A stretch of 41,486 nucleotides of DNA from Gemmatimonadota bacterium (lineage in GTDB: Bacteria > Gemmatimonadota > Gemmatimonadetes > Gemmatimonadales > Gemmatimonadaceae). Below, piece after piece: positions 5,047 to 23,897 of this stretch. The stretch is from the NCBI GenBank assembly GCA_021324635.1, contig JAJPIS010000089.1:1-41486 (forward strand), in the 5' to 3' direction. The position numbers and the translations under genes were made by a program. The notes beneath the pieces are model-generated. The model was not told where the DNA came from. It ran no database searches and saw nothing but the letters and a program-made list of their open reading frames with translations. The number at the start of each line of letters is the position of its first letter. Within the stretch, counting starts at the first letter, position 1.

Positions 5047-6804
<1,758 letters not shown>

Positions 6805-6811
6805 GGGTCCC

Positions 6812-8194
6812 GTGGCGACGCTCGCGGTCCCGGCCCTGACCCCCCCGCCCCGCGGCGGCGAGAGCCTGCTCGCCGCGGATGATGTGCGCAAGTACTACGG
6901 CGACGACCGCTCGCCGGTCCTCGACCACGTCAACCTCGAGCTCCGGGACGGGGAATTCGTCGCGCTACTCGGCCCGTCGGGATCGGGCAAGTCGACGCTC
7001 CTGCGCATCATGGCCGGCCTCATGCCGCCGTCGGAGGGACGGGTGCTCGTGCACGGCGAGCCGCTCCAGGGGCCCAATCCGCAGGTCGCCGTGGTCTTTC
7101 AGAGCTTCGCCCTGTTCCCCTGGCTCACGGTGCTCGACAACGTGGAACTGGGGCTCCTGGCGACGCCGCTCCTCCCCGCCGAACGGCACGCCCGGGCCGA
7201 GCAGGCGATCGAGCTGATCGGGCTCGCCGGCTACGAGGAGGCGTTTCCGAAGGAGCTGTCCGGCGGGATGAAGCAGCGCGTCGGCTTTGCGCGCGCCCTG
7301 GTCGTGCATCCGGAGGTCCTCTTCCTCGACGAGCCGTTTTCGGCCCTCGACGTCCTCACGGCAGAGAATCTCCGGGCCGAGCTCCAGGAGCTGTGGGCGG
7401 AGCGGTCGATCCCGACGCGCGCCGTGCTCATCGTGACTCACAACATCGAAGAGGCGGTGACGCTCGCCGACCGCATCGTCGTCTTCGGCGCGAACCCCGG
7501 CCATGTCCGGGTCGAGCTCCGGGGGCTGCCGGCGGCCGAGCGCCACGTCAAGAACGCGACCCGCGCGCACCTCGTCGACACGATCTATCAGATCATGACC
7601 AACCCCGATCAGGACGCGGCAGCCCTGCTCGAGCAGCGCCTGATGGCCGCGTCCCAGGCACCCGGGCGGACGACCGGCGGCGTGCGGGCTCGACGCTACC
7701 AGACGCTGCCGGATGTGAGCATCGACGATCTCACGGGGTTCGTGCAGTACCTGGCGACCGTCGGGGGCCGCGGTCACGTGCACGAGCTGTCGCGCGACCT
7801 CCAGATGCGCGCGGACGACCTGTTGGCCCTCGTCGAGGCCACCGATCTCCTCGGCCTGGCCGATCTCCAGAACCGCACCGTGCTGCTGACGCCGACCGGC
7901 CAGCGCTTCGCCGACGCCGATCTCGACGAGGAGAAGGCGCTGTTCCGGCAGATCGCGATCGAGCAGATCTCGCTGCTGCGCTACATCGTCCGCGAGCTGG
8001 AGACGAGCCCGACCCACACGCTCGAGGCGGAGCGCGTGCTCGACGATCTCGAGCACTCCTTCAGCAGCGAGGAGGCACGGCGCCAGTTCGAGACTGTCGT
8101 CGATTGGGGTCGGTACGCGGAGCTGTTCTCGTACGATGACATCGCCGGCGAGCTGCGACTCGACGAGGAGCACCGCATCACGGCTGACGGCTGA
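6812..8194 (+). CDS. ABC transporter ATPase with C-terminal AAA-associated domain
   Basis: ATP-binding subunit for the preceding permease, 460 residues from the chosen GTG. In that numbering, Walker A GPSGSGKST is at 54-62, the Q-loop glutamine about 97, signature LSGGMKQR at 149-156, Walker B VLFLDEP at 169-175 and the switch histidine about 210. About 150 further residues (about 298-440) match the extra 'AAA-associated' C-terminal domain that some nitrate/sulfonate-type ATPases carry, with winged-helix-like and acidic helical stretches; it may sense substrate or energy state. GTG at 6812 follows GAGGG and lies 7 bases after the permease stop; an ATG at 6770 inside the permease gene is the alternative. 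The 3' end overlaps the convergent glycosidase gene by 17 bases. Confidence 0.9.
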   Translation: MATLAVPALTPPPRGGESLLAADDVRKYYGDDRSPVLDHVNLELRDGEFVALLGPSGSGKSTLLRIMAGLMPPSEGRVLVHGEPLQGPNPQVAVVFQSFALFPWLTVLDNVELGLLATPLLPAERHARAEQAIELIGLAGYEEAFPKELSGGMKQRVGFARALVVHPEVLFLDEPFSALDVLTAENLRAELQELWAERSIPTRAVLIVTHNIEEAVTLADRIVVFGANPGHVRVELRGLPAAERHVKNATRAHLVDTIYQIMTNPDQDAAALLEQRLMAASQAPGRTTGGVRARRYQTLPDVSIDDLTGFVQYLATVGGRGHVHELSRDLQMRADDLLALVEATDLLGLADLQNRTVLLTPTGQRFADADLDEEKALFRQIAIEQISLLRYIVRELETSPTHTLEAERVLDDLEHSFSSEEARRQFETVVDWGRYAELFSYDDIAGELRLDEEHRITADG

Positions 8195-9083
8195 CGGCGA
8201 TCGGCTGGCGCACGTAGCGATCGACCATCGCCTCGGCGAAGTCGGCAAAGGCGGTGAGGTCCTTGGGCGGGCTCGTGTGATGCGGCCGCTTCCCGAGCGA
8301 CGGCGGCGTGAAGCAGAGCGTGACGGTCGTGTCGAACTCGTCGAGCGCCTCCATCTGCCGATCGAACCAGTCCTGCGCGCCGGGCCGATACCAGTCCGCC
8401 CAGCTCAACCCGGTGCGCAGCTTGCGCACGCCGAGCCGGCGCAGCCACGACACCGCCGAGTCGAGGCGGTGATCCTCGAAGTGGAACCACTGACAGATGC
8501 CGAGCGCCGGATCGAACGCCTCGATCGCCGGCTTCGGGCTGCCATCCTCGCGGATGAGTCCCATGTAGAAGTGGCGATAGTATGCGCTGCCCTCCGCCTC
8601 GCGGTGCCGGGTCGTCGCCTCCCAACCGGCCGGGAGGTCGAAGAGGCTGTACCAGAAGATGCGCTCGGCGCGGCCGCGCAGCAGCTCCGCCGTGCGGGTG
8701 ACCCCGAAGACCTGCACCTCGTCCGCTCCGAAGCTCGAGACGCCGACCTCCGTGACCCAGATCGGCAGCGACGTGACGGCGCGGATCTCGGCGAGCTTCT
8801 GCGGCCAGGCGCCGATCGGCCAGTGGTTCCAGTCGAGGGGGAACCCGTGGACGCCGACGATGTCGACCGCGGCCAGGACGCCCTGAGCGTCCATCCGGCG
8901 GATGAATGCCGGGTCGATGGGGGAGATTCCGCCCAGCACGAGCGGCAGCGCCGGTTGCATCGCTCGGACGCGCTCGGACGCGGCGATCGTCATGTGGCTG
9001 AAGTCCGCCCATTCTCGGTCGAGCTCGAAGTCCCAGTGCGACAGATTGTTCGGCTCGTTCCAGAACATCAGGGCTTCGATCAC
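8178..9083 (-). CDS. Beta-xylosidase-like TIM-barrel glycosidase, apparently circularly permuted
   Basis: Last gene of the ten-gene leftward operon, 301 residues. The start is GTG with AGGAG 5 bases upstream, 16 bases after the methyltransferase stop; a longer frame to 9191 runs into the methyltransferase gene and is rejected. The protein opens with FWNEPNN (acid/base E10). It continues with WVTEVG (nucleophile candidate E112), the barrel-closing FWYSLFDLP (143-151) and the dG-PKPA-type end (about 181-186). After that end come strands that normally start such a barrel: LGVRKLRTGLSW (217-228), VTLCFTPP (254-261) and the helix LTAFADFAEAMVDRYV (276-291), which in GH39/GH5-like enzymes directly precedes the W-N-E-P strand. 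No signal peptide is present, so it should act in the cytoplasm, perhaps as a trimming enzyme or transglycosidase. Confidence 0.78.
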   Translation of the reverse strand: MIEALMFWNEPNNLSHWDFELDREWADFSHMTIAASERVRAMQPALPLVLGGISPIDPAFIRRMDAQGVLAAVDIVGVHGFPLDWNHWPIGAWPQKLAEIRAVTSLPIWVTEVGVSSFGADEVQVFGVTRTAELLRGRAERIFWYSLFDLPAGWEATTRHREAEGSAYYRHFYMGLIREDGSPKPAIEAFDPALGICQWFHFEDHRLDSAVSWLRRLGVRKLRTGLSWADWYRPGAQDWFDRQMEALDEFDTTVTLCFTPPSLGKRPHHTSPPKDLTAFADFAEAMVDRYVRQPIAVSRQP

Positions 9084-9099
9084 GCGGGCTCCTGTCGGA

Positions 9100-9921
9100 T
9101 CATCGGGCCTCGGGCCACGGCTGCCCCGTCGCCGAGCACAGCTCGCGCAGCCCGGCCGGGGTGGCCCACACGCCGTCTTCCGTGGGCTCACACACGAACA
9201 TCTCGTGACCTGGGCGCCCGGTCACGCGGAGGCCGCTCGACCGCAGCATCGCGACGACGGCCGGGTCGTTCGGCGCCCACCAGTTGGTCGCGTCCCCGGC
9301 GAAGGAATGCTCGATGAACGCCAGACGCGGCCAACCCGGTGCGCAGAACGCCTCGCGATCCATGATGTCGTGATCGCGCTCCGTGTCGGCGTGCACCTCA
9401 TCACCCGGCATGGTGAGCGTCTGGCATACCATCAGTCGTCGCACCATGCGGGCGACGATGTCGAGGCCGAGCAGGGGGTACCTGAGGTGGTACAGGACGC
9501 CCATGAAGAGCACGAGGTCGTACCGGTCTGTCGTGTGCGCCAGCTCGTACACCTGCTGCTGCCGGAACTCGACGCGGTCGGCGAGCCCGAACTCCCCCGC
9601 CGCCCAACGCGCCTGGCGGAGGAACAGTGGCTCGACGTCGATGCCCGTGACGTAGGCCCCGCGGCGGGCGAGCTCGAAGGTGTAGAATCCCGCGTTGCAG
9701 CCGATGTCGAGCGCGTCCCAGCCGGAGAGATCATCGGGGATCCAGGGCGCCAGCTCGGCCCACTTGAACGCCGGGAAGTCGCCGAGCGGGTGGCGCGGCG
9801 CCGTCTGCGCCCCGTCGGGAAGATGCAGGTTGTGAAACCAGGGGCCGAGGTCGGCGATCTCCCGCCGCCGACCCTCGGAGGGCGCGGACACTTCGTGTTG
9901 GAGCAAGCTGGTCATCGTCAT
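9100..9921 (-). CDS. SAM methyltransferase, DUF1698/CmoB-like (TIGR04290-type)
   Basis: A 273-residue class I methyltransferase. The SAM-binding motif I is LDIGCNAGFY (71-80), with the acidic ribose-binding D95 in TGIDVEP. The segment GPWFHNLHLPDG before it and the HPLGDFP and KWAELAPWIP blocks are typical of the CmoB-like family that includes the TIGR04290 group, which I recall from glycan gene cassettes. The start ATG overlaps the upstream glycosyltransferase stop as ATGA; a second ATG lies two codons in. In this operon it probably O-methylates a sugar residue or the lipid/aglycone acceptor. A role in tRNA modification, as for CmoB itself, is unlikely given the context. Confidence 0.85.
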   Translation of the reverse strand: MTMTSLLQHEVSAPSEGRRREIADLGPWFHNLHLPDGAQTAPRHPLGDFPAFKWAELAPWIPDDLSGWDALDIGCNAGFYTFELARRGAYVTGIDVEPLFLRQARWAAGEFGLADRVEFRQQQVYELAHTTDRYDLVLFMGVLYHLRYPLLGLDIVARMVRRLMVCQTLTMPGDEVHADTERDHDIMDREAFCAPGWPRLAFIEHSFAGDATNWWAPNDPAVVAMLRSSGLRVTGRPGHEMFVCEPTEDGVWATPAGLRELCSATGQPWPEAR

Positions 9922-11069
9922 CCAGCCGCCCGGCCGACCCCGGCCAGGACGGCAGCCTCGGTGCGGGTAGACGGCGGCACCGACGCCTGGCGCCTGACCC
10001 CGAGCGCCTCATACGCGTACGACTCGAGCTCCGCGGCCCGATGGTCGGCCGTATGCGCCGCCAGCACGCGACGCCGCGCGCGGGCACCGATGGCGCGCCG
10101 CTGCTCGTCGGGCATCTGCTGGAGGTACCGGAGGACATCGGTGGTCGATCGCGCCACGAGGATCTCCTCGTCGGGCGTAAACAGCGTCTCGAGCCCGGAC
10201 CACCAGTCGCTGATGATGGGTGTGCCGCAGGCCGCGGCCTCGAACAGGCGCACGCTCGGTGAGTACCCGGCGGCGACCATGTCGGGGCGCGTGATATTCA
10301 GGGTGAACCGCTGCGCGGTGTAGAACGCGCGGTGCTCGCGCGGGGGGCAGTGCGCCTCGTGGCAGACGTTGCGAGGCCAGCGGAGCCGGGCCGGGTACTG
10401 GGCACCGACGACGGCGAACCGACCGGCCCGCCACGCCCGCGCCGGGGCGAGCAGCAGTCGATCGAGCGCCGGCTGGCGATCCCGACTGTACGTCCCCATG
10501 TAGGCGAGATCCCACGCCGCGGGGCCGCGGGCGGGGCGATAGACGGTCTCGTCGACCGAGCAATAGAGCGCGCGCGCTCGTCGGGCACCGAACTCGCGCT
10601 CGAGCCGCTCGAGGGTCGGCCCCCCGGTGAACGAGAGGTACAGATCGTAGCGCCGCACGAGCGCGCCGGAGATGTACTCTGCGTCGCCGCCGGCGAGACG
10701 CGCGAGCGTGACCGGCGTATCGATGTCGTAAAACGCGGTCGCGCCACGAGCCGTCCGCAGCACCCAGCGTCCGATCGCGGTCCCCTCCGGCACGTACGAG
10801 CCGACGACGACGAGATCCGCATCCCGCACGGCGTCGGCGTATCGCATCAGATCGTGGCGGTCGGCGTAGAGCACCGTCCGACCATACGGCGGGTGCGGCA
10901 GGTCGCGGTTGTCGGCATACCAGGGCATATCCCGCTCGAGGAAGAGCACCCGGTGGCCACGGCGGACCAGTCCCCGCACCAGCCCGCGATAGGTCGTGGC
11001 GTGGCCGTTCCCCCAGGACGAGGTGATCGACAGCCCGAGCATGACGATGTCCAGCGGCGTCTCACTCAC
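9918..11069 (-). CDS. CgeB-type glycosyltransferase (A)
   Basis: A 383-residue GT-B-fold glycosyltransferase of the CgeB type. The N-terminal domain begins with IVMLGLSITSSWGNGHAT (8-25). The C-terminal nucleotide-sugar domain has LNITRPDMVAAGYSPSVRLF and FEAAACGTPIISD (276-288), the usual donor-site block. It resembles the rightward-arm gene at 21191-22297 block by block (SSWGNGHAT, FYDIDTPVTLARL, GTY-DRQP-LD, FEAAACG), so the two are paralogues with probably related donors or acceptors. The start is GTG at 11069 with GGAGG 8 bases upstream, overlapping the previous stop as GTGA; the open frame to 11360 is a shadow inside the upstream gene. Confidence 0.88.
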   Translation of the reverse strand: MSETPLDIVMLGLSITSSWGNGHATTYRGLVRGLVRRGHRVLFLERDMPWYADNRDLPHPPYGRTVLYADRHDLMRYADAVRDADLVVVGSYVPEGTAIGRWVLRTARGATAFYDIDTPVTLARLAGGDAEYISGALVRRYDLYLSFTGGPTLERLEREFGARRARALYCSVDETVYRPARGPAAWDLAYMGTYSRDRQPALDRLLLAPARAWRAGRFAVVGAQYPARLRWPRNVCHEAHCPPREHRAFYTAQRFTLNITRPDMVAAGYSPSVRLFEAAACGTPIISDWWSGLETLFTPDEEILVARSTTDVLRYLQQMPDEQRRAIGARARRRVLAAHTADHRAAELESYAYEALGVRRQASVPPSTRTEAAVLAGVGRAAG

Positions 11070-12238
11070 GGCCGCGCCTCCGCGGCGGCCGTGCTCGCGG
11101 CCGGCCGCGATGCAGGCGCTCGCCCGGCGCCGTGTCGAGGCGCGCCGTGACCGCCGGGGCGCTCGACGCCCAGGACGGCGTCGATCTGAGCGGCGCGATG
11201 TTCGTACGTGTGTTCGTTCAGCACCCGGCGGCGGGCCGCCGCGCCGATCGCCCGCGCCTCCTCGGCGCCTACCTGCTCGACGTGGGCCGCAACCCCGGCG
11301 CCGTCCTCCGCGACGAGCACCTCTCGCCCCGGCTCGAGAAAGAGCTCGATCCCCGCCCACGCGTCGGTGATGAGGCAGGCGCCTGCGCCGGCGGCCTCGA
11401 AGACGCGGGTCGGGGGCGAGAACCCGTAGCGGGCCATGCTCTCGCGGTTCACGTTGAGCACCATCCGTGGCGTGCAGTTGAACGCGTTGTGCTCGGCCGT
11501 GTAGACGTGCCCGATCGCGCGGACATTCGCGGGGAGCGGCTTGTCATCCCACCCGCTTCCACCGAGCAGGCACTGCCGGTGCGGCAGCCGCGCCGCGGCA
11601 CCGAGGAAGAACTCCTCCACGCGCGCCTCGCGGTCGGGCAGCCGGTTGCCGAGGAACCCCAGATCGGCGGCGAAGCGGGGATCCGGGGCCACCGGATAGT
11701 GCGTCGTCGGATCGAGCGCGTTGTAGACGGGGACGCACGTCCGAGCGCCGAGCGCGCCGTAACCACGGACCACCGGGTCGCCACCGCCGTAGGTGAAGAC
11801 GACGTCGTAGCGGGGTACGAGGCGCCGGAAGGGGTCGGCGGGACATCGCCCGACACGCTCCAGCGTGGCAGGGGCGTCGACGTCCCAGTACGCGACGAGC
11901 GCTCCCGGGCGGCGCAGGTCCAGCACCGCGCGCTCGAGCAGCTCATCGGCGACGCCAACCCCGCTCGCCTTGACGATGAGATCCGCGCCGCGTCCCGCCT
12001 CGACGGCGGCGAGCACGGACGACTCGTGATCGGCATTGTAGACGACGACCCGCGCCCACGGCGGATCGGGGATGTCGCGGTGTTGCTGCCTGCCGTAAGC
12101 ATCGGGCTCGTAGAACGTCACCCGGTGCCCACGCTCGGCGAGCGCCCGGACGACGCCCCGGTAGTACGTCGCGGCACCGTTCCAGTAGGCGGAGACGAGA
12201 CTGGAGCCGTAGAAGGCGATCCGGAGACCCGTGTCCAT
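11066..12238 (-). CDS. CgeB-type glycosyltransferase (B)
   Basis: A 390-residue GT-B protein. The N-terminal Rossmann half starts RIAFYGSSLVSAYWNGAATYYRG (positions 6 on) and the donor-binding half carries YGFSPPTRVF and EAAGAGACLITD (281-292). It is the same family as its two downstream and upstream neighbours but clearly divergent from them, so it probably adds a different sugar. The last 35 or so residues are Ala/Pro/Arg-rich and look disordered. The start ATG overlaps the upstream stop as ATGA. Cytoplasmic, no membrane segments. Confidence 0.87.
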   Translation of the reverse strand: MDTGLRIAFYGSSLVSAYWNGAATYYRGVVRALAERGHRVTFYEPDAYGRQQHRDIPDPPWARVVVYNADHESSVLAAVEAGRGADLIVKASGVGVADELLERAVLDLRRPGALVAYWDVDAPATLERVGRCPADPFRRLVPRYDVVFTYGGGDPVVRGYGALGARTCVPVYNALDPTTHYPVAPDPRFAADLGFLGNRLPDREARVEEFFLGAAARLPHRQCLLGGSGWDDKPLPANVRAIGHVYTAEHNAFNCTPRMVLNVNRESMARYGFSPPTRVFEAAGAGACLITDAWAGIELFLEPGREVLVAEDGAGVAAHVEQVGAEEARAIGAAARRRVLNEHTYEHRAAQIDAVLGVERPGGHGAPRHGAGRAPASRPAASTAAAEARP

Positions 12239-13413
12239 CAGGGCGCTCCCACGGCCCGCCCCGCGCCGCCCGTGTGGGACAGCGCCGCGGGCGCCGGCCC
12301 CGTCAGCGCTTCGACGATCCGCAGCAGCTCGTCGACACGGTGCCCGCAGGTGTGGCGGGCCATGATGGCGGCCCGGCCCCGAGCGGCCACCTCCTGTGCC
12401 ATCGCCGAATCGTCGCGGAGCACGCGGAGGTGCCGCCGCATCTGATTTCCCGACATCGCGATCAGATAGTCGGATCCGGGCGAGAACAACCCCTCGGCGT
12501 CGTCCCAGGGCGCCGACACGAGGGGAATGCCGCAGGCGAGTGCCTCGAAGACGCGAATCGTCGGGATGCCGGGAAGGCACCGGGCATAGGCGCGCCGTGG
12601 GACGTGCACGGTCATCGCGTATCGGGCGAAGCGGCACGGCACCTCGAAGTTCGGGAGCCACCCGCCGTACGCGATCGCGGCGTCCGCGAGGGCACGCCGC
12701 GCCTCGGGGGGATACCGGACGCCGTGCACCATGGCGCGGAGCCCGAGCGCGCGCGCCGGCTCGATGAGAAATTCGTGCAGCTCGGCCGAGCGCTCGCCGT
12801 CACCCCAGTTCCCGATCCACACGAGATCGCCCGCGCGCTCCGCCCGGTCGCCGTCCGGAACTGGACGAAAGACGCGGACATCGGCCGCCTCGTGCCACGT
12901 CCACGCCCGCGCCGCCCATCCGGCGAGCAGGTACCGCTCGCGGATCACCTCGCCGAAGGTCAACGCGCCGTCGTATTCACTCAAGTCGTATCGGGCCATC
13001 TCGGCGGGCGCCGTCGCCGAGCGGTGGTGCGTGTCGTGGAAGAGCAGTCGGTACGCAGCGCCGGTGGCGGCGCGATGGGCGCCGATCCGTGCCACCAGGG
13101 AATGCGCGTTCCACTCGTGGACGAGCACCAGGTCGGCGGTGCCCAGTGCCGCATCGAGGTCCAGGGTCGCGGGGTCGAACACGACACTCCGGAACCGGGG
13201 ACCGGCGAACGCCGGATAGGCAGTCCGATAGCGCTCGAGCGCGCCGGGACCCTGGTCGGCCACGAGGTTGGCGGCGCTCCACGCGTCGGCGGGCTCGTAG
13301 ACCGTCACCCGATGACCACGGGTGAGCAGCTCGGTCGCGACACCGCGGAGAAAATGGGCGTTGCCGTGGTTCCAGTCCGATCGCAACGAATGGTAGAACA
13401 TCACGACGTGCAC
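12238..13413 (-). CDS. CgeB-like glycosyltransferase (C)
   Basis: A 391-residue GT-B-type glycosyltransferase. It opens with HVVMFYHSLRSDWNHGNAHF and has the donor-site block IPTIRVFEALACGIPLVSAP (283-302). The acceptor half differs from the other three CgeB-like proteins of the locus. GTG at 13413 is chosen because GGGAGG lies 7 bases upstream and because it removes most overlap with the preceding GT4 gene, whose stop is at 13401; the remaining overlap is 13 bases. The open frame extending to 13644 lies within the GT4 gene. The C-terminus after about 370 is Ala/Gly-rich. Confidence 0.85.
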   Translation of the reverse strand: MHVVMFYHSLRSDWNHGNAHFLRGVATELLTRGHRVTVYEPADAWSAANLVADQGPGALERYRTAYPAFAGPRFRSVVFDPATLDLDAALGTADLVLVHEWNAHSLVARIGAHRAATGAAYRLLFHDTHHRSATAPAEMARYDLSEYDGALTFGEVIRERYLLAGWAARAWTWHEAADVRVFRPVPDGDRAERAGDLVWIGNWGDGERSAELHEFLIEPARALGLRAMVHGVRYPPEARRALADAAIAYGGWLPNFEVPCRFARYAMTVHVPRRAYARCLPGIPTIRVFEALACGIPLVSAPWDDAEGLFSPGSDYLIAMSGNQMRRHLRVLRDDSAMAQEVAARGRAAIMARHTCGHRVDELLRIVEALTGPAPAALSHTGGAGRAVGAP

Positions 13414-14570
13414 GCCATATCCTCCCGGGATGGTGCGACCGGGCGCGGCGCGTCGGTCCCGCGCGCGCGCCCGAGCCGGCCGTAGACTGCTCGGTACGCC
13501 GTGGCAGCCCGGGCCAGGTCGTACCGCGCCGCGTGGATGCGGGCCGCCCGGCCCAGGGCGCGGCGGTGGGTCTCGTTGGCGATCAGCCCACGAATCGCCC
13601 GGCGGAGGGCATCGTGGTCGTCCGGCCGGACGAAGACCGCGCACCCGGACCAGAGCTCGCGGAGGCTTGGAATGTCACCCAGCACGAGCGCGCACCCCGC
13701 GAGCGCCGCTTCGACGACCGAGAGGCCGAAGGGCTCGTAGCGTGCGGGGAGGACGTAGATCGAGGCCCGGTTCATCCACGCCGCGAGCCCGTGTGCATCC
13801 AGCACGCCCAGGACGCGTGCAGGGCCGCCATCCCCCGGGGCACCCCCCGCCTCTGGCGCAGTGGTGCCCGACGCCCGGCCGGGGATCGGCGATGCCGCAG
13901 TCGGGCCGGCGACGTAGACGGGCCAGGGCAGATCGGGCGCGATGGCGGTGAGCGCCGCGACATTCTTCGCCGGATCCCAGAGACGGCCGGCCGTCAGGAC
14001 GAACGGCTCCTTGATCGCCGGCCGCAACCCGTGCGCGCTCCGCCCGTTGTGGATCACGCACGCCCGCCGCACCGGGCCGTACTGCGCCTGGAGGGCGTCG
14101 AGCATCGCGGCGCTCGGCGCCACCACGAGATCCGCCGCACGGAGTCCCGCGAGGACGGCCTCGCGGTATCTGTCCCAGTCCGGCGGCGCCGGCTCGCCGT
14201 GGACCGCCGCCCACCAGGACAGCACGCACGAGTGTGCCACGCAGAGCACGGGACAGTCCCAACCCCGCGCGGCGTGCGTGTACCCGTTCAGGTGCACGAC
14301 GTGGGGACGCACCGACCGCGCGAGATCGCCCAACCATTCCCCGGCTCGCGCCAGGTCGTCCCACGGGTCGGGCATCCACTCGAGGCGGAAGGGCGCCACG
14401 TGCAGCCGGAGATTTGGCACCGATCGGGCTTCGCGCTCTCGGGCCTCGGACGGCGGCGGCCCCATCACCGCGAGCGTCACCTCCACGCGATGCGGGACGA
14501 GCGCGGCGGCGAGATCGACGGCGTAGCGCCAGACGCCGCCCACGGCATCGGCCGTCATCAGGACCCGCAT
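13401..14570 (-). CDS. GT4-family glycosyltransferase
   Basis: A 389-residue retaining glycosyltransferase (GT-B fold). The N-terminus MRVLMTADAVGGVWRYAVDL is the usual GT4 start, with the glycine loop at 10-12. The donor domain has AGRLWDPAKN (194-203) and the E-x7-E block YEPFGLSVVEAALAGCALVL (278-297). An insertion around 223-250, rich in Ala, Pro and Gly, separates two strands of the donor domain. The start is uncertain: ATG at 14570 begins the conserved fold, while ATG at 14618 would overlap the upstream oxidoreductase by 11 bases. Neither has a good ribosome binding site. It probably builds the same oligosaccharide as the CgeB-like enzymes. Confidence 0.87.
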   Translation of the reverse strand: MRVLMTADAVGGVWRYAVDLAAALVPHRVEVTLAVMGPPPSEAREREARSVPNLRLHVAPFRLEWMPDPWDDLARAGEWLGDLARSVRPHVVHLNGYTHAARGWDCPVLCVAHSCVLSWWAAVHGEPAPPDWDRYREAVLAGLRAADLVVAPSAAMLDALQAQYGPVRRACVIHNGRSAHGLRPAIKEPFVLTAGRLWDPAKNVAALTAIAPDLPWPVYVAGPTAASPIPGRASGTTAPEAGGAPGDGGPARVLGVLDAHGLAAWMNRASIYVLPARYEPFGLSVVEAALAGCALVLGDIPSLRELWSGCAVFVRPDDHDALRRAIRGLIANETHRRALGRAARIHAARYDLARAATAYRAVYGRLGRARGTDAPRPVAPSREDMACTS

Positions 14571-14607
14571 CACGGGCGTGCTGCCGGCGCGGACCCGGAC
14601 GCCGGGC

Positions 14608-15690
14608 TCACCGGCCATACACCGCATCGAGCGCCGCGGCCGTCGGGATCAGACAGGCGACCGCCGGATCGAAGCCGCGTGCGCGCCGGGTGCCGGCGGT
14701 CACCCTCGGGTCCGACCGACCGCCCCCGAGCGCCTCGGCCCACGCCACCGCGGCGCGGCCGCCCCACGCATCCGGCGGGGCACTCAGCTGGTGGGACCTG
14801 GTTCCGTCGTATCGTTCGGCGACGAAGTCGTAGAACGACCCGTCGACGTTGTGCAGGGCGGCACCGCCGTGGGTCCCGTGGAACGACGCCGAAATCACCG
14901 CCTCCCGCCCCGCTGCCAGCCGCCATGAGCACGCGAGGCGGACCGTGGCGCCGGTCTCCAGATCCAGTTGAGCCACACCGAAGTCCTCGACCGCGGCCGT
15001 TGGCAGCTCGAGCGGGCGCCCCTCCGCGAACAGGCGACTCGCCACGCGACCGACACTCGGGAAGTCGAGTGTCCACAGCGCGAGATCGAGCAGATGGATG
15101 CCCAGGTCGATCACGCACCCGCCGCCGGAGCGGATCGGGTCGTAGAACCACGACTTGTCCGGACCGTAGGCGTTGTGGAAGACGAGGTCGACGGCGAAAA
15201 TCGACCCGACCGCTCCCGAGCGCACGACGTCCCTGACGCGCCGCGCGGCGTCCGTGTACCGGTAGGAGAGATCGACCCCGAGGAGGCGATCGGCCGCCCG
15301 CGCGGCCTCGATCACCCGCCGTGTCTCGGCGGCGGTGCGCGCGAGCGGCTTCTGGCAGAACACCGCGAGTCCCCGCTCGAGCGCAGTGATCGACTGCTCG
15401 GCGTGCAGCGCGCTCGGCGTCGCGATCACCACGCCATCGACCCCCGCCTCGCGCGCGGCCTCGAGCGCGGCCTCGAACGACGACACGATCGATGCATCGG
15501 GCGCGACCGCCGCCGCGGCGGCGGCTGCCGCCGGATCGGGATCGGCGATGACGGCGGCCACGCCCGCCCCGCTTCGGATCACCGACTCGAGTCGGTGTCG
15601 CCCGATCCAGCCGGTGCCGACAAACGCCAGGCGCGGGAGGCCGAGCGCCCGAGGGACGGTCGGGACCTCCTCAAGAGCGGCCCCGTTCAT
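14608..15690 (-). CDS. Gfo/Idh/MocA-family sugar oxidoreductase
   Basis: NAD(P)-dependent oxidoreductase of 360 residues. The Rossmann motif is FVGTGWIGR (23-31). The catalytic-lysine motif is FCQKPLA (K114), with Gln in place of the common Glu. The SGGGCVIDLGIHLLDLALW block (187-205) holds the Asp and His expected in the active site. No export signal, so it should act in the cytoplasm on a sugar or nucleotide sugar. It is coupled by an ATGA overlap to the zinc dehydrogenase just upstream; such Gfo/Idh plus zinc-ADH pairs are common in glycan clusters and can act together in oxidising and reducing a sugar ring. The substrate is unknown. Confidence 0.9.
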   Translation of the reverse strand: MNGAALEEVPTVPRALGLPRLAFVGTGWIGRHRLESVIRSGAGVAAVIADPDPAAAAAAAAVAPDASIVSSFEAALEAAREAGVDGVVIATPSALHAEQSITALERGLAVFCQKPLARTAAETRRVIEAARAADRLLGVDLSYRYTDAARRVRDVVRSGAVGSIFAVDLVFHNAYGPDKSWFYDPIRSGGGCVIDLGIHLLDLALWTLDFPSVGRVASRLFAEGRPLELPTAAVEDFGVAQLDLETGATVRLACSWRLAAGREAVISASFHGTHGGAALHNVDGSFYDFVAERYDGTRSHQLSAPPDAWGGRAAVAWAEALGGGRSDPRVTAGTRRARGFDPAVACLIPTAAALDAVYGR

Positions 15691-16703
15691 GTGAGCACCA
15701 ATGCCTTGAGGAACCCGTGCGGTCGGTCGGCCGCCATCTGTAGCGCAACCCCGACCTCGTCGAGCCCGAACCGGTGCGTGTACAGGGGATCCGGGTCGAG
15801 GGCGCCACTCGCCACCAGGGCGACCGCGCGCCGGATGCCGTCCACGTACCGGTGCGGGTCGCGCTCGTGCGCGTTGATGACGTCGATGCCACGCCAGTTC
15901 CAGAGCTGCATGTCGATCTGCCGGTGCCCGTCCTGGTGGTAGCCGGCAATGACCAGCCGCCCGCGCTCGCGCGTCAGTGGCGCCGCCAGATCGAGCCCCT
16001 CCTGACGTCCCACGGCCTCGATCACCCGGTCGCAGCCGCGTCCCCCGGTGAGCTGCTCGACCCGCCGGACCACCGCCGCCGGATCGTCGGTCGCGAGCAC
16101 CTCGACCGCGCCCGCCACGCGCGCGATCTCTCGAGCGAACGGCCGGCGAGAGATCGCGATCACTCGTGCGCCGGCTCCGACCGCGAGCTGGACGAAGAGG
16201 GCGCCCAGAAACCCGATGCCGATGACGGCCACGTCCTGACCCGCCTGAACATCGCTCCGGCCGAACGCGTTCACGGCACACCCGAGCGGCTCACCGGGCA
16301 GCGCGCGGGTGGCGAGTGCCGCAGGAATCGGGACGACGGCATCGGCGGCCGCGATGTCGTAGTCGGCGAACGCGTGATAGGAGAGGGCGGCGACCGGCGT
16401 GCCGATGGCGAGCCCCGCCACGCCCGGCCCCACCGCATCGATGACGCCCCACCCCTCGTGCCCGGGCGCGCCGGGCGCCGACGGATAGGTGAACCAGGGC
16501 CGGCCCTCCCACACCGGGATGCTGGAGGCGCACACGCCGCAGCCCGTCAGTCGGACCCGCACGTGCCCGCGCCCGGGCTCCGGGGGCTCGAGCGCGTCGG
16601 TTCGCATCGTGTGCGGGGCGACCAGCACGGCCGCGCGCGGGTGCGCGGACGCGCGGGTGCGCGCCGAGGGGACGGCCTCGGCCTCGTGCGTCGTGACGCC
16701 CAT
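15687..16703 (-). CDS. Zinc-type alcohol dehydrogenase (MDR) lacking the structural zinc loop
   Basis: Medium-chain dehydrogenase/reductase of 338 residues. The GroES-like domain has GCGVCAS (C55/C58) and GHEGWGV (H82, E83), the expected catalytic-zinc ligands. The NAD domain has VAVIGIGFLGAL (158-169). The four-cysteine structural zinc loop, normally between the GHE motif and the cofactor domain, is absent. ATGA overlaps join it to the epimerase upstream and the Gfo/Idh gene downstream, so it is firmly part of the operon. It probably oxidises or reduces a sugar intermediate; the substrate cannot be read from the sequence. Confidence 0.9.
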   Translation of the reverse strand: MGVTTHEAEAVPSARTRASAHPRAAVLVAPHTMRTDALEPPEPGRGHVRVRLTGCGVCASSIPVWEGRPWFTYPSAPGAPGHEGWGVIDAVGPGVAGLAIGTPVAALSYHAFADYDIAAADAVVPIPAALATRALPGEPLGCAVNAFGRSDVQAGQDVAVIGIGFLGALFVQLAVGAGARVIAISRRPFAREIARVAGAVEVLATDDPAAVVRRVEQLTGGRGCDRVIEAVGRQEGLDLAAPLTRERGRLVIAGYHQDGHRQIDMQLWNWRGIDVINAHERDPHRYVDGIRRAVALVASGALDPDPLYTHRFGLDEVGVALQMAADRPHGFLKALVLT

Positions 16704-17824
16704 CACGCCGCTTCCTCGGCTGCCGCGAACGATGCCTTCGCCGCGGCACCCGCGGCCGCAGCGACGGCGACACCCACGCTCGCATCGGCGCGCGGCCGGT
16801 GACGGAGCAGCCAACGATAGAGTCGACCGACTCCAGCCTGCACGCTGACCCGGGGTGCCCAGCCGGTTGCCGCCTGGAAGCGCCGCGTATCGGAGACGTA
16901 GTAGCGCTGGTCGCCGGTGCGCCACTCGCCGAAGGCGAGGTCGGGGCGCTCGCCGTGCAGCACCGCGATCAGATCGAGCAGCTCGAGCAGACTCGTCGTG
17001 TGCGCCGGGCCCCCGCCGACATTGAACGCCCGACCCGACGTGCGGTCGAGGTGCGCGAGCGCCTGGAGGAACGCGTCCACCAGATCATCGACGAAGAGCA
17101 CATCGCGGACCTGACGACCGTCGCCGTAGAGCGCGATCGGCCGCCCCTCGATCGCCTGGACCAGGAAGTGAGCGAGCCACCCCTGATCCTCGGTCCCGAA
17201 CTGGTGCGGCCCGTAGATGCAGCTCATGCGAAAGACGACCGTGCGCAAGCCAAACGAGCGGGCGTAGTCGAGCACGTACTGATCGGCCGTCCCCTTGGAG
17301 CATCCATAGGGGCTGTGGAAGTCCAGAGACCGATCTTCGGCGACGCCAGCGCCGTGCGCCCCCCGGTCGACCGGCTCGTAGCGCGTCGAGCCACGCCGCA
17401 GCGCGATGTCGTCGAGCGCGCCGTAGACCTTGTTGGTCGACGTGAAGACGAGCGGGGGCGGGTCCGTCCGGGTCCGAAGCGCCTCGAGCACGTTGAGCGT
17501 GCCGCCGGCGTTGACCTCATAGTCGTGCGCCGGATCCACCAGACTCGTCGTGACGGCGACCTGTGCGGCAAAGTGGAAGACCTGCGACGCGCCCGCAACC
17601 GCGTCCCGGACCGCGTCCCGGTCACGAATGTCGGCCTGCCGGAGGGCGAGTCGGCCACCATGGGTCTTCCGGAGCCAGTCGACGTTGTGGTGCACGCCGG
17701 CCCGCGAGAGATTGTCGTAGAGGACGACGGTCTGGCCCGCCGCGAGCAGGCGGTCGGCCAGGTTACACCCGATGAACCCGGCCCCGCCGGTGATCAGGGT
17801 GTACCCGCGTTGGTCCGGGCTCAT
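16703..17824 (-). CDS. NAD-dependent epimerase, CDP-paratose 2-epimerase-like
   Basis: Extended SDR nucleotide-sugar epimerase of 373 residues. NAD-binding GGAGFIG is at 13-19, the TSTNKVYG block at 128-135, and the catalytic Y173-x3-K177 pair in YGCSK. TSTNKVYG and the RMSCIYG-HQFG-EDQGW block (199-215) are typical of CDP-paratose/tyvelose 2-epimerases (RfbE type), although the CDP-sugar pathway enzymes are not in view, so the substrate may differ. The last about 20 residues are an Ala-rich tail not usual for the family. ATGA overlaps at both ends place it second in the leftward operon. Confidence 0.88.
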   Translation of the reverse strand: MSPDQRGYTLITGGAGFIGCNLADRLLAAGQTVVLYDNLSRAGVHHNVDWLRKTHGGRLALRQADIRDRDAVRDAVAGASQVFHFAAQVAVTTSLVDPAHDYEVNAGGTLNVLEALRTRTDPPPLVFTSTNKVYGALDDIALRRGSTRYEPVDRGAHGAGVAEDRSLDFHSPYGCSKGTADQYVLDYARSFGLRTVVFRMSCIYGPHQFGTEDQGWLAHFLVQAIEGRPIALYGDGRQVRDVLFVDDLVDAFLQALAHLDRTSGRAFNVGGGPAHTTSLLELLDLIAVLHGERPDLAFGEWRTGDQRYYVSDTRRFQAATGWAPRVSVQAGVGRLYRWLLRHRPRADASVGVAVAAAAGAAAKASFAAAEEAA

Positions 17825-18936
17825 ACGGTAAGCCCCCGCGTTGCGAGGGCTTCGCTGGCCTCGGCCACTCGATCGTCGGCCTGCTGTCCCTCGAGCCATT
17901 CGGCCAGCTCGAGCAACCCGTCGTCGAACGAGACTCGTGGGTCGTACCCGAGCACGGCCCGGGCATGGTCGATATCGGCCACGCAGTGGCGGATATCGCC
18001 GACCCGGTATTTCCCCGTGATCTCCGCGCCGATGTACTCGCGGCCCATGACTCGCGCCATCCGGTCGGCGACCTCGCGGATCGTGATCGCGCGGCCGCTG
18101 CCGACGTTGAAGACATCGCCGTCGAGCCCGGGTGTGGCGATCGCCAGGCGGAACGCCCGCGCCACATCGCGCGCAGCCACGAAGTCCCGCTGCTGGAGAC
18201 CGTCCTCGAAGATCGTCGGCGGGCGGTCGTTGAGGAGACGGGAGGCGAAGATCGCGAGGACACCGGTGTACGGATTGGAGAGCGCCTGGCGAGTGCCGTA
18301 GGTGTTGAAGAGCCTGAGCGCCACCGCCGGGATCCCGTAGGCGCGGCCCACCATCAGGCAGAGCCGCTCCTGGTCGTACTTCGAGAGCGCGTAGACCGAG
18401 GCGATCGCGGGGACCTTGTCCTCGGGTGTCGGGATCGGCTCGAGGATCGTCCCGCGGGCGTCTCGCACCTCCCACTCGGCGGCTCGGAGCTGCGCCAACG
18501 ACCGCTCGGGCGCGGCCGTCCGGCGGCCGTCCAGCGTCCTGTACAGGCCTTCGCCGTAGAGGCTCATACTGGAGGCGACAACGAGACGCTCCACGGGGCG
18601 CTCGATCAAAGCCTCGAGCAGGATCGCGGTGCCGAGGTCGTTCACCGCGGTGTAGTGCGCGACCTCGTACATGCTCTGTCCGACTCCGACGGCGGCAGCC
18701 AGGTGGCAGACGACGTCGATGCCGCGAAGCGCGCGTCGAACGGCTGCGGGATCCCGCACATCGCCCACGACCAGCTCCACGTGTGGGTCCAGGTAGCCGG
18801 GGCGACCGCCGCCACTGCCGTGAACCTGTGGCGACAGATTGTCGAGCGCCCGCACGCGGTACCCGTGCTCCAGTAACTCATCGGCCAGGTGCGAGCCAAT
18901 GAATCCCGCCCCGCCGGTGATCAACACGTGTTGCAT
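17821..18936 (-). CDS. NAD-dependent nucleotide-sugar epimerase, dTDP-rhamnose 4-epimerase-like
   Basis: First gene of the leftward operon, 371 residues. GGAGFIG (8-14) binds NAD; ASSMSLYGEG (121-130) and YALSK (Y182, K186) complete the SDR triad. The combination of AAVGVGQSMYEV, SSMSLYGEGLY and ALRLFNTYG-RQALSNPYTGV is what I recall for dTDP-L-rhamnose 4-epimerase-like proteins (making dTDP-L-talose or related sugars), but related UDP-sugar epimerases cannot be excluded. The start ATG at 18936 has GGGAGG 6 bases upstream, which decides against in-frame ATGs at 18963 and 19083. Confidence 0.88.
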   Translation of the reverse strand: MQHVLITGGAGFIGSHLADELLEHGYRVRALDNLSPQVHGSGGGRPGYLDPHVELVVGDVRDPAAVRRALRGIDVVCHLAAAVGVGQSMYEVAHYTAVNDLGTAILLEALIERPVERLVVASSMSLYGEGLYRTLDGRRTAAPERSLAQLRAAEWEVRDARGTILEPIPTPEDKVPAIASVYALSKYDQERLCLMVGRAYGIPAVALRLFNTYGTRQALSNPYTGVLAIFASRLLNDRPPTIFEDGLQQRDFVAARDVARAFRLAIATPGLDGDVFNVGSGRAITIREVADRMARVMGREYIGAEITGKYRVGDIRHCVADIDHARAVLGYDPRVSFDDGLLELAEWLEGQQADDRVAEASEALATRGLTV

Positions 18937-19269
18937 CGCGTCCTCCCGTAAGGCTTCGGCCATCCGTGCGGGCGCCTGCCGTGTCGACTCGGTGTGGCGT
19001 GAGTCGCCCGCTTCGATTCGCACGTGACGACGCAGCGCATCGACCTCACCGTCCCCGCCCAGGCGTGATCGCTCGGTTTGCATCGGACGTGCCGTCGGTC
19101 GGGTCCGGCGCGCGAGACGGGGCGGCTGCGCCCGTCACCACCGGGCCGGGCAACTCGCAGGCCGCCAGTGGACGGGGTCGCGGAAATTCGTGCCGACCCT
19201 CACTCGGGTCCCGTTGCCCGGGCCGCCCCGTCGAGTCGTGACGGCGGCGGCTGTGATGCGTCCTGGGCC
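18937..19269. promoter_or_regulatory. Divergent intergenic region driving both arms of the glycan locus
   Basis: About 330 bases between the first genes of the two operons, so promoters for both arms should lie here. I see no convincing -10/-35 pair on either strand. The perfect arms CCGGGCAAC (19146-19154) and GTTGCCCGG (19213-19221) could form a long-range stem in the exporter leader. No ORF with recognisable content lies here. Part of the region may be the N-terminus of the exporter, whose start is uncertain. Confidence 0.5.
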
Positions 19270-22299: not shown

Positions 22300-23097
22300 A
22301 TGTGGGGGATCATCCCCGCGGCGGGCGTCGGGAGCCGCATCCAACCGCTGGCGTTCTCCAAGGAGCTGTTGCCCGTGGGGAGCCGGGTCGACGATGGCGT
22401 CGAGCGCCCGCGCGCGGTGAGCGAGTACCTGGTCGAGCGCATGATCGTGGGTGGCGCAACGAAGATCTGTTTCGTCGTCTCGCCGGGGAAGACGGACATC
22501 CTCACCTACTATGGCGGCGGCGTCTGCGCGGCTCACATTGCATACACCGTCCAGTCGCGCCCCGCCGGGCTCTGCGACGCGATCTTCCGCGCGCTGCCGC
22601 TCGTGGGCGCCGAGGAGTCGGTCGTCATCGGGCTCCCGGACACGATCTGGTTCCCGACCGACGCCCTGCGCGACCTCCCGAGCGACCGGCTGGCGTTCCT
22701 CCTGTTCCCGGTCGATCGCCCGGAGCTGTTCGATGCGGTGAGAACGGGCCCGGACGGCGCGGTGCAGGCGATCGAGGTGAAGACGCCATCGCCGTCGACC
22801 TCCTGGATCTGGGGCGCGTGCCGCATGCCGGCCGCCGTGCTGAGCGACCTGCACGTGCTCTGGGAGGAGCGCGAGGAGCGCGACGAGTACCTGGGCACAC
22901 TCGTCAACGCCTACCTCGCGGGGGGCGGACGAGCCGTGGGAATCAAGCGCGGCACCGCCTACGTCGACGTCGGGACGCTGCACGGCTACCGCGAGGCCAT
23001 CGCCCTCCTGCGGACGGCGGCAGACGATGCGACCCGTCTCCCATGGCGCGTCAACTCCACCCGCTCGAGCTCCTGGGCGCAGGCACCGGCCCGGTAG
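22300..23097 (+). CDS. Sugar-phosphate nucleotidyltransferase
   Basis: A 265-residue protein that should activate a sugar 1-phosphate to an NDP-sugar. The nucleotide-binding signature PAAGVGSRIQPLAFSKELLP (6-25) replaces the classical GGxGxRLxPxTxxxPKxLLP, with K21 as the expected lysine. The metal-binding aspartate is D114 (GLPDTIW), and YVDVGTLHGY (221-230) is the usual late block of glucose-1-phosphate thymidylyl/uridylyltransferases. The ATG is 2 bases after the glycosyltransferase stop. Its 3' end overlaps the PIG-L gene by 55 bases. It could supply the substrates of the epimerases in the leftward arm. The base and sugar specificity is not readable. Confidence 0.87.
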   Translation: MWGIIPAAGVGSRIQPLAFSKELLPVGSRVDDGVERPRAVSEYLVERMIVGGATKICFVVSPGKTDILTYYGGGVCAAHIAYTVQSRPAGLCDAIFRALPLVGAEESVVIGLPDTIWFPTDALRDLPSDRLAFLLFPVDRPELFDAVRTGPDGAVQAIEVKTPSPSTSWIWGACRMPAAVLSDLHVLWEEREERDEYLGTLVNAYLAGGGRAVGIKRGTAYVDVGTLHGYREAIALLRTAADDATRLPWRVNSTRSSSWAQAPAR

Positions 23098-23897
23098 CGG
23101 TCGTCGTCGCGCACCCGGACGACGAGATCATCGGCGCCGGTCACCTGTTACGATCGCTCCCGGACGCTGTGATCATCTACGTCACCGACGGGGCGCCGCA
23201 CGACATGGCGGATGCACGCGCGGCCGGCTGCATGACCCGCGAGGCCTACGCCGAGCGACGGCGGCGGGAGCGGGCAGCCGCCCTGACCGAGGTGGGACTG
23301 GGGCCGGACCGCACGCGGGATCTCGGGGCCGTGGACCAACAGGCGTCGTACGAGCTGAGCGCGCTGGCGCTCCGGCTCCGCGCCACGCTCGACGCGCTGC
23401 GCCCGGCGGCCGTCCTGACGCACTCCTACGAAGGAGGTCATCCCGACCACGACGCGACGGCGTTCATCGTGCACGCCGCCGCCGAGCCGCAGCTCGGGTC
23501 GAGCCGGCGTCCGACCACACGTGGCGGTGCGCCTCCGATCATCGAGCTCACGTCCTATCACGCGAGCGGCGGTCGGCGAGTCGTGGGCGTGTTCATTCCC
23601 CATCCGGCGGCCGGACCGGAAGTGTCCGTGGCGTTGACGGCGGCCGCGCGCCGCCGGAAGGCACGTCTGTACGCGTATCACCGGTCGCAGATCCGCGTCC
23701 TCGCGGACTGCCAGGTGGACGTGGAGCGGTTCCGGCGGGCACCGGCCTACGACTTCAGCCGGCCGCCGCACGCCGGCGTTCTCTGGTACGAGCGCTTCGG
23801 GTGGGGGATGCCCGGCGGCGGCCGCCAGTGGCGGGCGTTGGCCGCGGCTGCGCGCGCCGAGCTGGGCCTGGTACGGTCGGATGGAGGCTCGCCGTGA
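23043..23897 (+). CDS. PIG-L (LmbE-like) family deacetylase
   Basis: A 284-residue zinc-dependent N-deacetylase of the type that removes acetyl from N-acetylglucosamine-containing molecules (PIG-L, MshB, BshB). The metal motif AHPDDE is at 23-28 (H24, D27) with the third ligand in HPDHD (133-137). The start is the ATG at 23043, inside the end of the nucleotidyltransferase gene; the longer frame to 22257 is a shadow. The stop overlaps the next start as GTGA. It probably exposes an amine on a sugar, which the acetyltransferase-like half of the next protein or another enzyme could modify. Confidence 0.88.
   Translation: MARQLHPLELLGAGTGPVAVVVAHPDDEIIGAGHLLRSLPDAVIIYVTDGAPHDMADARAAGCMTREAYAERRRRERAAALTEVGLGPDRTRDLGAVDQQASYELSALALRLRATLDALRPAAVLTHSYEGGHPDHDATAFIVHAAAEPQLGSSRRPTTRGGAPPIIELTSYHASGGRRVVGVFIPHPAAGPEVSVALTAAARRRKARLYAYHRSQIRVLADCQVDVERFRRAPAYDFSRPPHAGVLWYERFGWGMPGGGRQWRALAAAARAELGLVRSDGGSP

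Follow-up and report, generated by a model that had tools for sequence, protein, structure and literature searches.

The window analysed here, a stretch of 41,486 nucleotides from a Gemmatimonadota bacterium (contig JAJPIS010000089.1), carries on its minus strand a gene for a 301-residue protein (8178..9083) that begins with a GTG codon (9083-9081) and ends with a stop at 8180-8178. The ribosome binding site AGGAG lies at 9089..9093 on the same strand, 5 nt 5' of the GTG, and purine-rich sites resembling it precede the corresponding start in many of the homologues. Directly upstream is the gene for a TIGR04290 methyltransferase (9100..9921, minus strand; 326.9 bits, cut-off 300), whose stop codon is separated from the GTG at 9083 by 16 nt. 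Also on the minus strand are four glycosyltransferase genes (9918..14627) with matches to the Pfam profiles Glyco_trans_1_2 and Glyco_transf_4/Glycos_transf_1; their ORF bounds, in which the starts are approximate, are 9918-11360, 11066-12661, 12238-13644 and 13401-14627. Based on Pfam matches of the ORF translations, the adjoining minus-strand region (14608..19083) encodes a Gfo/Idh oxidoreductase, a zinc dehydrogenase and two SDR sugar-nucleotide enzymes, and no glycosidase fusion was found on any of these four proteins. Two other ORFs of the window have unusual domain contents. The first (23027-26014, plus strand; 995 residues) combines glycosyltransferase and FemAB/GNAT-like acetyltransferase (Acetyltransf_6) domains and is adjoined by a PIG-L deacetylase gene, while the second (35601-37877, minus strand; 758 residues) has the odd pairing of an alpha/beta hydrolase with a periplasmic binding protein domain (Peripla_BP_6).

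The N-terminal part of the 301-residue protein includes the motifs FWNEP (residues 7–11), HGFP (79–82), WVTEVG (109–114), FWYSLFDLP (143–151) and DGSPKPA (180–186), which are followed in the C-terminal part by LGVRKLRTGLSW (217–228), VTLCFTPP (254–261) and MVDRYV (286–291). This is the order from which a sequence-only reading had claimed that the protein is a natural circular permutant of a TIM-barrel glycosidase, and the motif positions run as listed there. The claim itself is borne out by a structural model, by the homologues and by alignments to rotated sequences, as described below.

In clan GH-A families generally, the acid/base is located on strand beta4 and the nucleophile on beta7, and the strands follow one another in canonical order. 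The AlphaFold2 model of the 301-residue protein, which was built from an alignment of 58 sequences, has a pLDDT of 88.7 and a pTM of 0.88, and is poor only at residues 156–168 and in the tail from residue 295. It contains strands at residues 2–7 (followed by WNEP), 48–53, 75–80, 108–113 (ending in VTE), 142–145, 195–197, 221–227 and 251–257, alternating with helices, the last of which spans residues 278–290. The predicted chain order is thus beta4 to beta8, then beta1 to beta3 and alpha3, and the (beta/alpha)8 set of elements is complete in the model. The sequence-only reading had named a predicted structure without a closed barrel as one refuting outcome, and it is this complete set in rotated order that the model gives instead. 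N9-E10 follows the strand 2–7 and E112 ends the strand 108–113, which corresponds to the clan GH-A type of a beta4 Asn-Glu and a beta7 Glu. Because the strand order is rotated and does not run from beta1 to beta8 as in clan GH-A, we refer to the protein as a permuted variant and not as a plain member of the clan. The model aligns to many TIM barrels with Z scores of 11–14. Its residues 1–193 superpose on residues 156–356 of PslG (173 residues, 2.3 Å, 25% identity), which is only half of its length; the full-length structural matches are to other barrels at 5–12% identity and 3.4–4.5 Å, a pattern expected from register-shifted matching of an eight-fold barrel. Similarly, a Foldseek search of the PDB with the model returned only weak or register-shifted matches, again as expected of a permuted barrel. 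The Foldseek matches to GH128, GH10, GH2 and GH53 enzymes were rejected as a finer identification, since they cover about half of the barrel and indicate clan GH-A at most.

Compared with the sequences of the PDB, the family profile matched PslG (GH39) in two pieces, swapped in order and directly adjoining (31 bits; E value 1.6e-6), query residues 2–153 aligning with chain positions 131–301 and query residues 192–290 with positions 19–128. When the last ~100 residues were moved to the front of a 12-sequence profile, a single continuous match to PslG was obtained (43.6 bits; E value 2e-10; query 7–253 to chain 25–301); without rotation, these 12 sequences reached 28.2 bits. Among proteins of solved structure, PslG alone is a clearly significant match by sequence, with the E value of 2e-10 after rotation. 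Circular rotations of the window protein in 5-residue steps were also scored against four non-permuted relatives and PslG, together with 100 shuffles. The scan against the four relatives gave a clean maximum at starts 186–191; for one normal-order relative, for example, the score was 483 at the peak, 293 in natural order and no more than 60 for the shuffled sequences. Against PslG the optimum was a broader plateau that includes the 186–191 start (148, compared with 99 in natural order and no more than 46 when shuffled). The signal is thus far above chance, and rotation at about residue 190 merges the two swapped PslG matches into one, the outcome anticipated for a permutant.

These alignments allow the gene to be divided on the minus strand into three parts. 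Residues 1–185 (8529..9083) form the beta4–beta8 half with both catalytic glutamates, as placed by the AlphaFold2 elements and the PslG superposition. Residues 186–194 (8502..8528) are the linker that connects the original C-terminus with the original N-terminus, placed by the rotation optimum against the normal-order relatives, and residues 195–291 (8211..8501) correspond to beta1-beta2-beta3-alpha3, the elements that come first in normal barrels, based on the model and on the alignments to PslG and to the N-terminal part of the normal-order relatives. The predicted acid/base E10 (WNEP; codon 9054..9056) and the predicted nucleophile E112 (WVTE; codon 8748..8750) align with the catalytic residues E165 and E276 of PslG, respectively. 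The residue correspondence uses a numbering offset of 25–26 taken from the structural alignment, the beta1–alpha3 half being matched by sequence and the beta4–beta8 half by structure. In PslG both glutamates are key residues for hydrolysis and for PSL production (PMC9075953, PMC6813494). The homology to PslG and to the normal-order relatives is established by computation, and we assign a probability of roughly 0.9 to the reading that the protein is a natural circular permutant of a PslG-related glycosidase fold with E10 and E112 at the active-site positions given by the alignment.

A scan of public genomes identified 357 relatives of the window protein, of which 80, with 63–74% identity, were kept; their record titles include Chloroflexi, Ignavibacteria, Verrucomicrobia, Acidobacteria, Planctomycetes, Nitrospirae, Bacteroidota, Myxococcus, Desulfuromonadales and Proteobacteria. 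Without exception, the alignments to these 80 begin at residue 1 or 2 and extend to about residue 290 with the order unchanged, so that the permuted order and the start are common to loci across many phyla. At 17 of these loci the start is preceded by an in-frame stop no more than six codons away, which leaves no room for a beta1–beta3 segment ahead of it. The earlier contention that the GTG is the real start and that nothing is missing 5' of it is thereby upheld: the gene is intact, its start is genuine, and a truncated or misassembled gene is ruled out by the conservation of start and order. E10, E112 and the motifs around them are invariant in 58 of 58 permuted sequences, and in the same alignment the beta1–alpha3 part is as conserved as the remainder of the protein. 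A divergent permuted subfamily, forming its own clade at ~47–61% identity to the window protein, is represented by L122, L123 and L124 from the genomes G272, G250 and G242, respectively; G250 carries a second, more typical permuted copy as well. An apparent second alpha3 before beta4 in the divergent copy of G250 (L123) was considered as the footprint of a tandem duplication and rejected as a chance similarity of the upstream sequence. In the genome G006, the permuted gene (L125:7122-7999) gives matches in two frames, indicating a frameshift or a sequencing error.

Relatives with the normal order also exist. A search with the rotated profile was carried out in 298 genomes of the phylum of the window, and most carriers gave two neighbouring matches, which corresponds to the permuted order. 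A single genome, G140, was singled out by a one-piece match (residues 3–285; E value 4e-62), which corresponds to the normal order. This domain (P0002) constitutes the first ~310 residues of a 677-residue protein, the second half of which is a sugar-nucleotide SDR enzyme. In natural order the window protein aligns with P0002 in two swapped pieces (114 and 83 bits), and after rotation in one piece with 186 bits and 38% identity. Across almost the full domain, the normal-order relatives share 33–38% identity with the rotated window protein, and their catalytic motifs are alike. The fused proteins of R. leguminosarum (WP_012760324.1) and Tistrella (WP_014747405.1) likewise share the catalytic motifs and the cluster type of the permutant, but in contrast to the stand-alone permutant they have the canonical order, are fused to an SDR enzyme and carry no annotation beyond NAD-dependent epimerase/dehydratase. 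Under the same annotation, a glycosidase domain of ~310 residues has been overlooked at the N-terminus of the proteins at L117:13953-15995, L118:13959-16007 and L119:13959-16013. The fused gene of Xanthomonas sacchari (L129:12001-12905) matches in two frames, from a frameshift or a sequencing error. A model of a normal-order domain from Dyadobacter, built from an alignment of four sequences, has the canonical order at a modest pLDDT of 64.8, and its top match in the PDB is PslG, over the whole length, with a Z score of 20.6, in contrast to the half-length superposition of the permutant.

The GH39 profile of Pfam (PF01229) has no match to the window protein at an E value of 0.1 and matches only 8 of 58 relatives (best E value 0.0056). 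PF11790 (Glyco_hydro_cc, GH128) reaches 18.5 bits with the window protein, below its cut-off of 21 bits, and matches 56 of the 58 relatives over the beta4–beta7 part (best E value 6.8e-7). No GH13 or GH70 profile was found among the Pfam matches of the cluster or of the relatives. A significant sequence relation to GH39 is given by its characterised member PslG, at the E values given above for the natural and the rotated order. The permuted form is currently annotated as 'beta-xylosidase' or hypothetical, and the former name is an annotation only.

The glycosidase and the methyltransferase occur together consistently. Each of the 16 genomes with TIGR04290 in the 298-genome sample also encodes the glycosidase, permuted in 15 and normal in one, and among the 80 loci TIGR04290 is present in 62 and directly upstream of the glycosidase in 49 of these. 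Similar clusters with a stand-alone permuted enzyme are present in Sinorhizobium meliloti, Bradyrhizobium and Paracoccus yeei, and include in addition an inositol-3-phosphate synthase and a histidine phosphatase. In the similar clusters of R. leguminosarum, Tistrella, Geminicoccaceae, Paracoccus AK26 and G140, which have the fused normal form, no stand-alone copy was seen nearby. Approximately 50 plasmid records carry the fused form, mostly from Rhizobium but also from Tistrella, Geminicoccaceae, Agrobacterium, Paracoccus sp. AK26 and Xanthomonas sacchari; most of the other ~98 plasmid records appear to carry the permuted form, among the matches listed (Sinorhizobium, Roseomonas, Azospirillum, Paracoccus yeei and Bradyrhizobium). 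Literature searches on the TIGR04290 cluster, with thin coverage of subscription journals, returned nothing.

We propose that the enzyme is a PslG-like (GH39-related, clan GH-A type) retaining beta-glycosidase whose barrel would have been opened between alpha3 and beta4 and whose old ends a short linker would now connect; E10 as acid/base and E112 as nucleophile should thereby hold the places that they have in the normal enzyme. That both glutamates are invariant and coincide with those of PslG speaks for a retaining glycosidase, and catalysis by this mechanism is very likely. Since the first residues form a core barrel strand and leave no room for a signal peptide, the enzyme is expected to be cytoplasmic, in agreement with the location proposed for it before. 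The genes that constantly accompany it, and the naturally occurring SDR fusion, suggest that it acts on an intermediate in the glycan pathway of its own cluster. A hydrolase that trims or edits an intermediate of the TIGR04290 pathway in the cytoplasm is the predicted role, with about even odds, and is favoured over transglycosylation. A transglycosidase would instead contribute to glycan assembly by passing a glycosyl unit from one cytoplasmic intermediate to another. Retaining glycosidases can transfer, the cluster is a glycan-building one with four glycosyltransferases, and in the normal-order relatives the domain is joined to an SDR enzyme of sugar-nucleotide type. On the other hand, we found no feature in the glycosidase sequence that separates transfer from hydrolysis, and PslG, the closest characterised relative, is a hydrolase whose activity supports PSL production (PMC6813494), and we consider transfer rather unlikely. 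A non-catalytic function, with the barrel retained for glycan binding or as a scaffold, is improbable; a normal-order copy without its acid/base does persist in an SDR fusion of Planctomycetes (L028), but in the permuted form both glutamates and their motifs are conserved without exception in 58 sequences.

The predicted hydrolase can be compared with PslG of Pseudomonas aeruginosa (GH39; PDB: 5bx9, 4zn2, 9g17), which has its acid/base and nucleophile at the same positions. PslG is likewise a glycosidase encoded among glycan-making genes and is needed for full production (PMC9075953, PMC6813494). It has, however, the canonical strand order, a signal sequence and an extra C-terminal part, and is found at the inner membrane and in the periplasm, in contrast to the permuted enzyme, which has 301 residues and no space for a signal peptide. 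The present family bears on the question, raised for PslG, of why glycan-synthesis clusters carry glycosidases (PMC9075953).

In an unrooted tree calculated after rotation, 28 permuted and 9 normal sequences are split by one branch with 100/100 support, which is consistent with a single permutation. Rooting with PslG and two distant barrels gave branches too long for the root to be usable. Based on the canonical order in clan GH-A, the direction would be from canonical to permuted, and it is highly probable that the permutation happened once and started from the canonical order. The opposite direction, in which the permuted order is ancestral and that of the fused relatives derived, is compatible with the tree, which by itself gives no direction, but is very improbable because PslG has the canonical order, as do the fused relatives and clan GH-A families in general. 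The sequence-only reading had also considered that homologues of the usual order might reveal this gene to be simply rearranged. Such homologues do exist, but they constitute a separate, long-diverged clade, which argues for a real permutation and not for a local rearrangement of the window gene. The reading of an ordinary barrel gene whose N-terminal part went missing or was displaced in one genome, through rearrangement or misassembly, likewise predicts normal-order relatives but has practically no chance given the 80 loci in many phyla with the same start and order, the close upstream stops at 17 of them and the conservation of the beta1–alpha3 part.

Most clusters have one form only. Strict mutual exclusion of the two forms was nevertheless contradicted by four of the 80 loci, three from Dyadobacter and one from Planctomycetes, in which both are present, and the two therefore need not be equivalent. 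In Dyadobacter (L023, L039 and L077) the permuted gene is located at 8001-8879 and the normal-order domain at ~15600-16600, with the catalytic motifs intact in both, and the two forms may have distinct substrates. The Planctomycetes locus L028 has copies at 5831-6709 (minus strand) and 8001-8876 (plus strand); the permuted copy is intact, and in the SDR-fused normal copy WNEPNN is changed to LNSQNS, with loss of the acid/base, as though catalysis had passed to the permutant. Tentatively, one permutation might have freed the glycosidase from the SDR fusion, after which the stand-alone permutant would have spread with the TIGR04290 cluster across many phyla and taken over catalysis, the normal domain having vanished or decayed as in the Planctomycetes copy. 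If so, clan GH-A would offer a permutation experiment performed by nature, in which the two topologies can be compared directly.

To our knowledge, catalytic TIM barrels have seldom undergone circular permutation in nature, and the clear precedent among glycosidases is GH70. In the GH70 glucansucrases and GtfB enzymes the (beta/alpha)8 barrel is circularly permuted, and non-permuted GtfC and GtfD enzymes survive (PMC9732880). These differ from the present family, which is of the clan GH-A type, in that they are large, multidomain, alpha-retaining enzymes of clan GH-H from lactic acid bacteria. Full-text searches for permuted clan GH-A enzymes, within an incomplete coverage of the literature, found none. 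Nature appears to have re-cut a glycosidase fold and kept both versions. Because the permuted and normal relatives share a cluster type and sometimes a genome, the effects of topology on folding, stability and function can be tested with natural proteins. The annotation is also corrected, both for the permuted form and for the normal form hidden in NAD-dependent epimerases. Finally, in the alphaproteobacterial clusters L117, L118, L119 and L128, genes for sigma factors, DUF1003 and ferritin-like proteins, Mn catalase and Ku/LigD are found nearby, and these stress-type neighbours may hint at a stress-related glycan.
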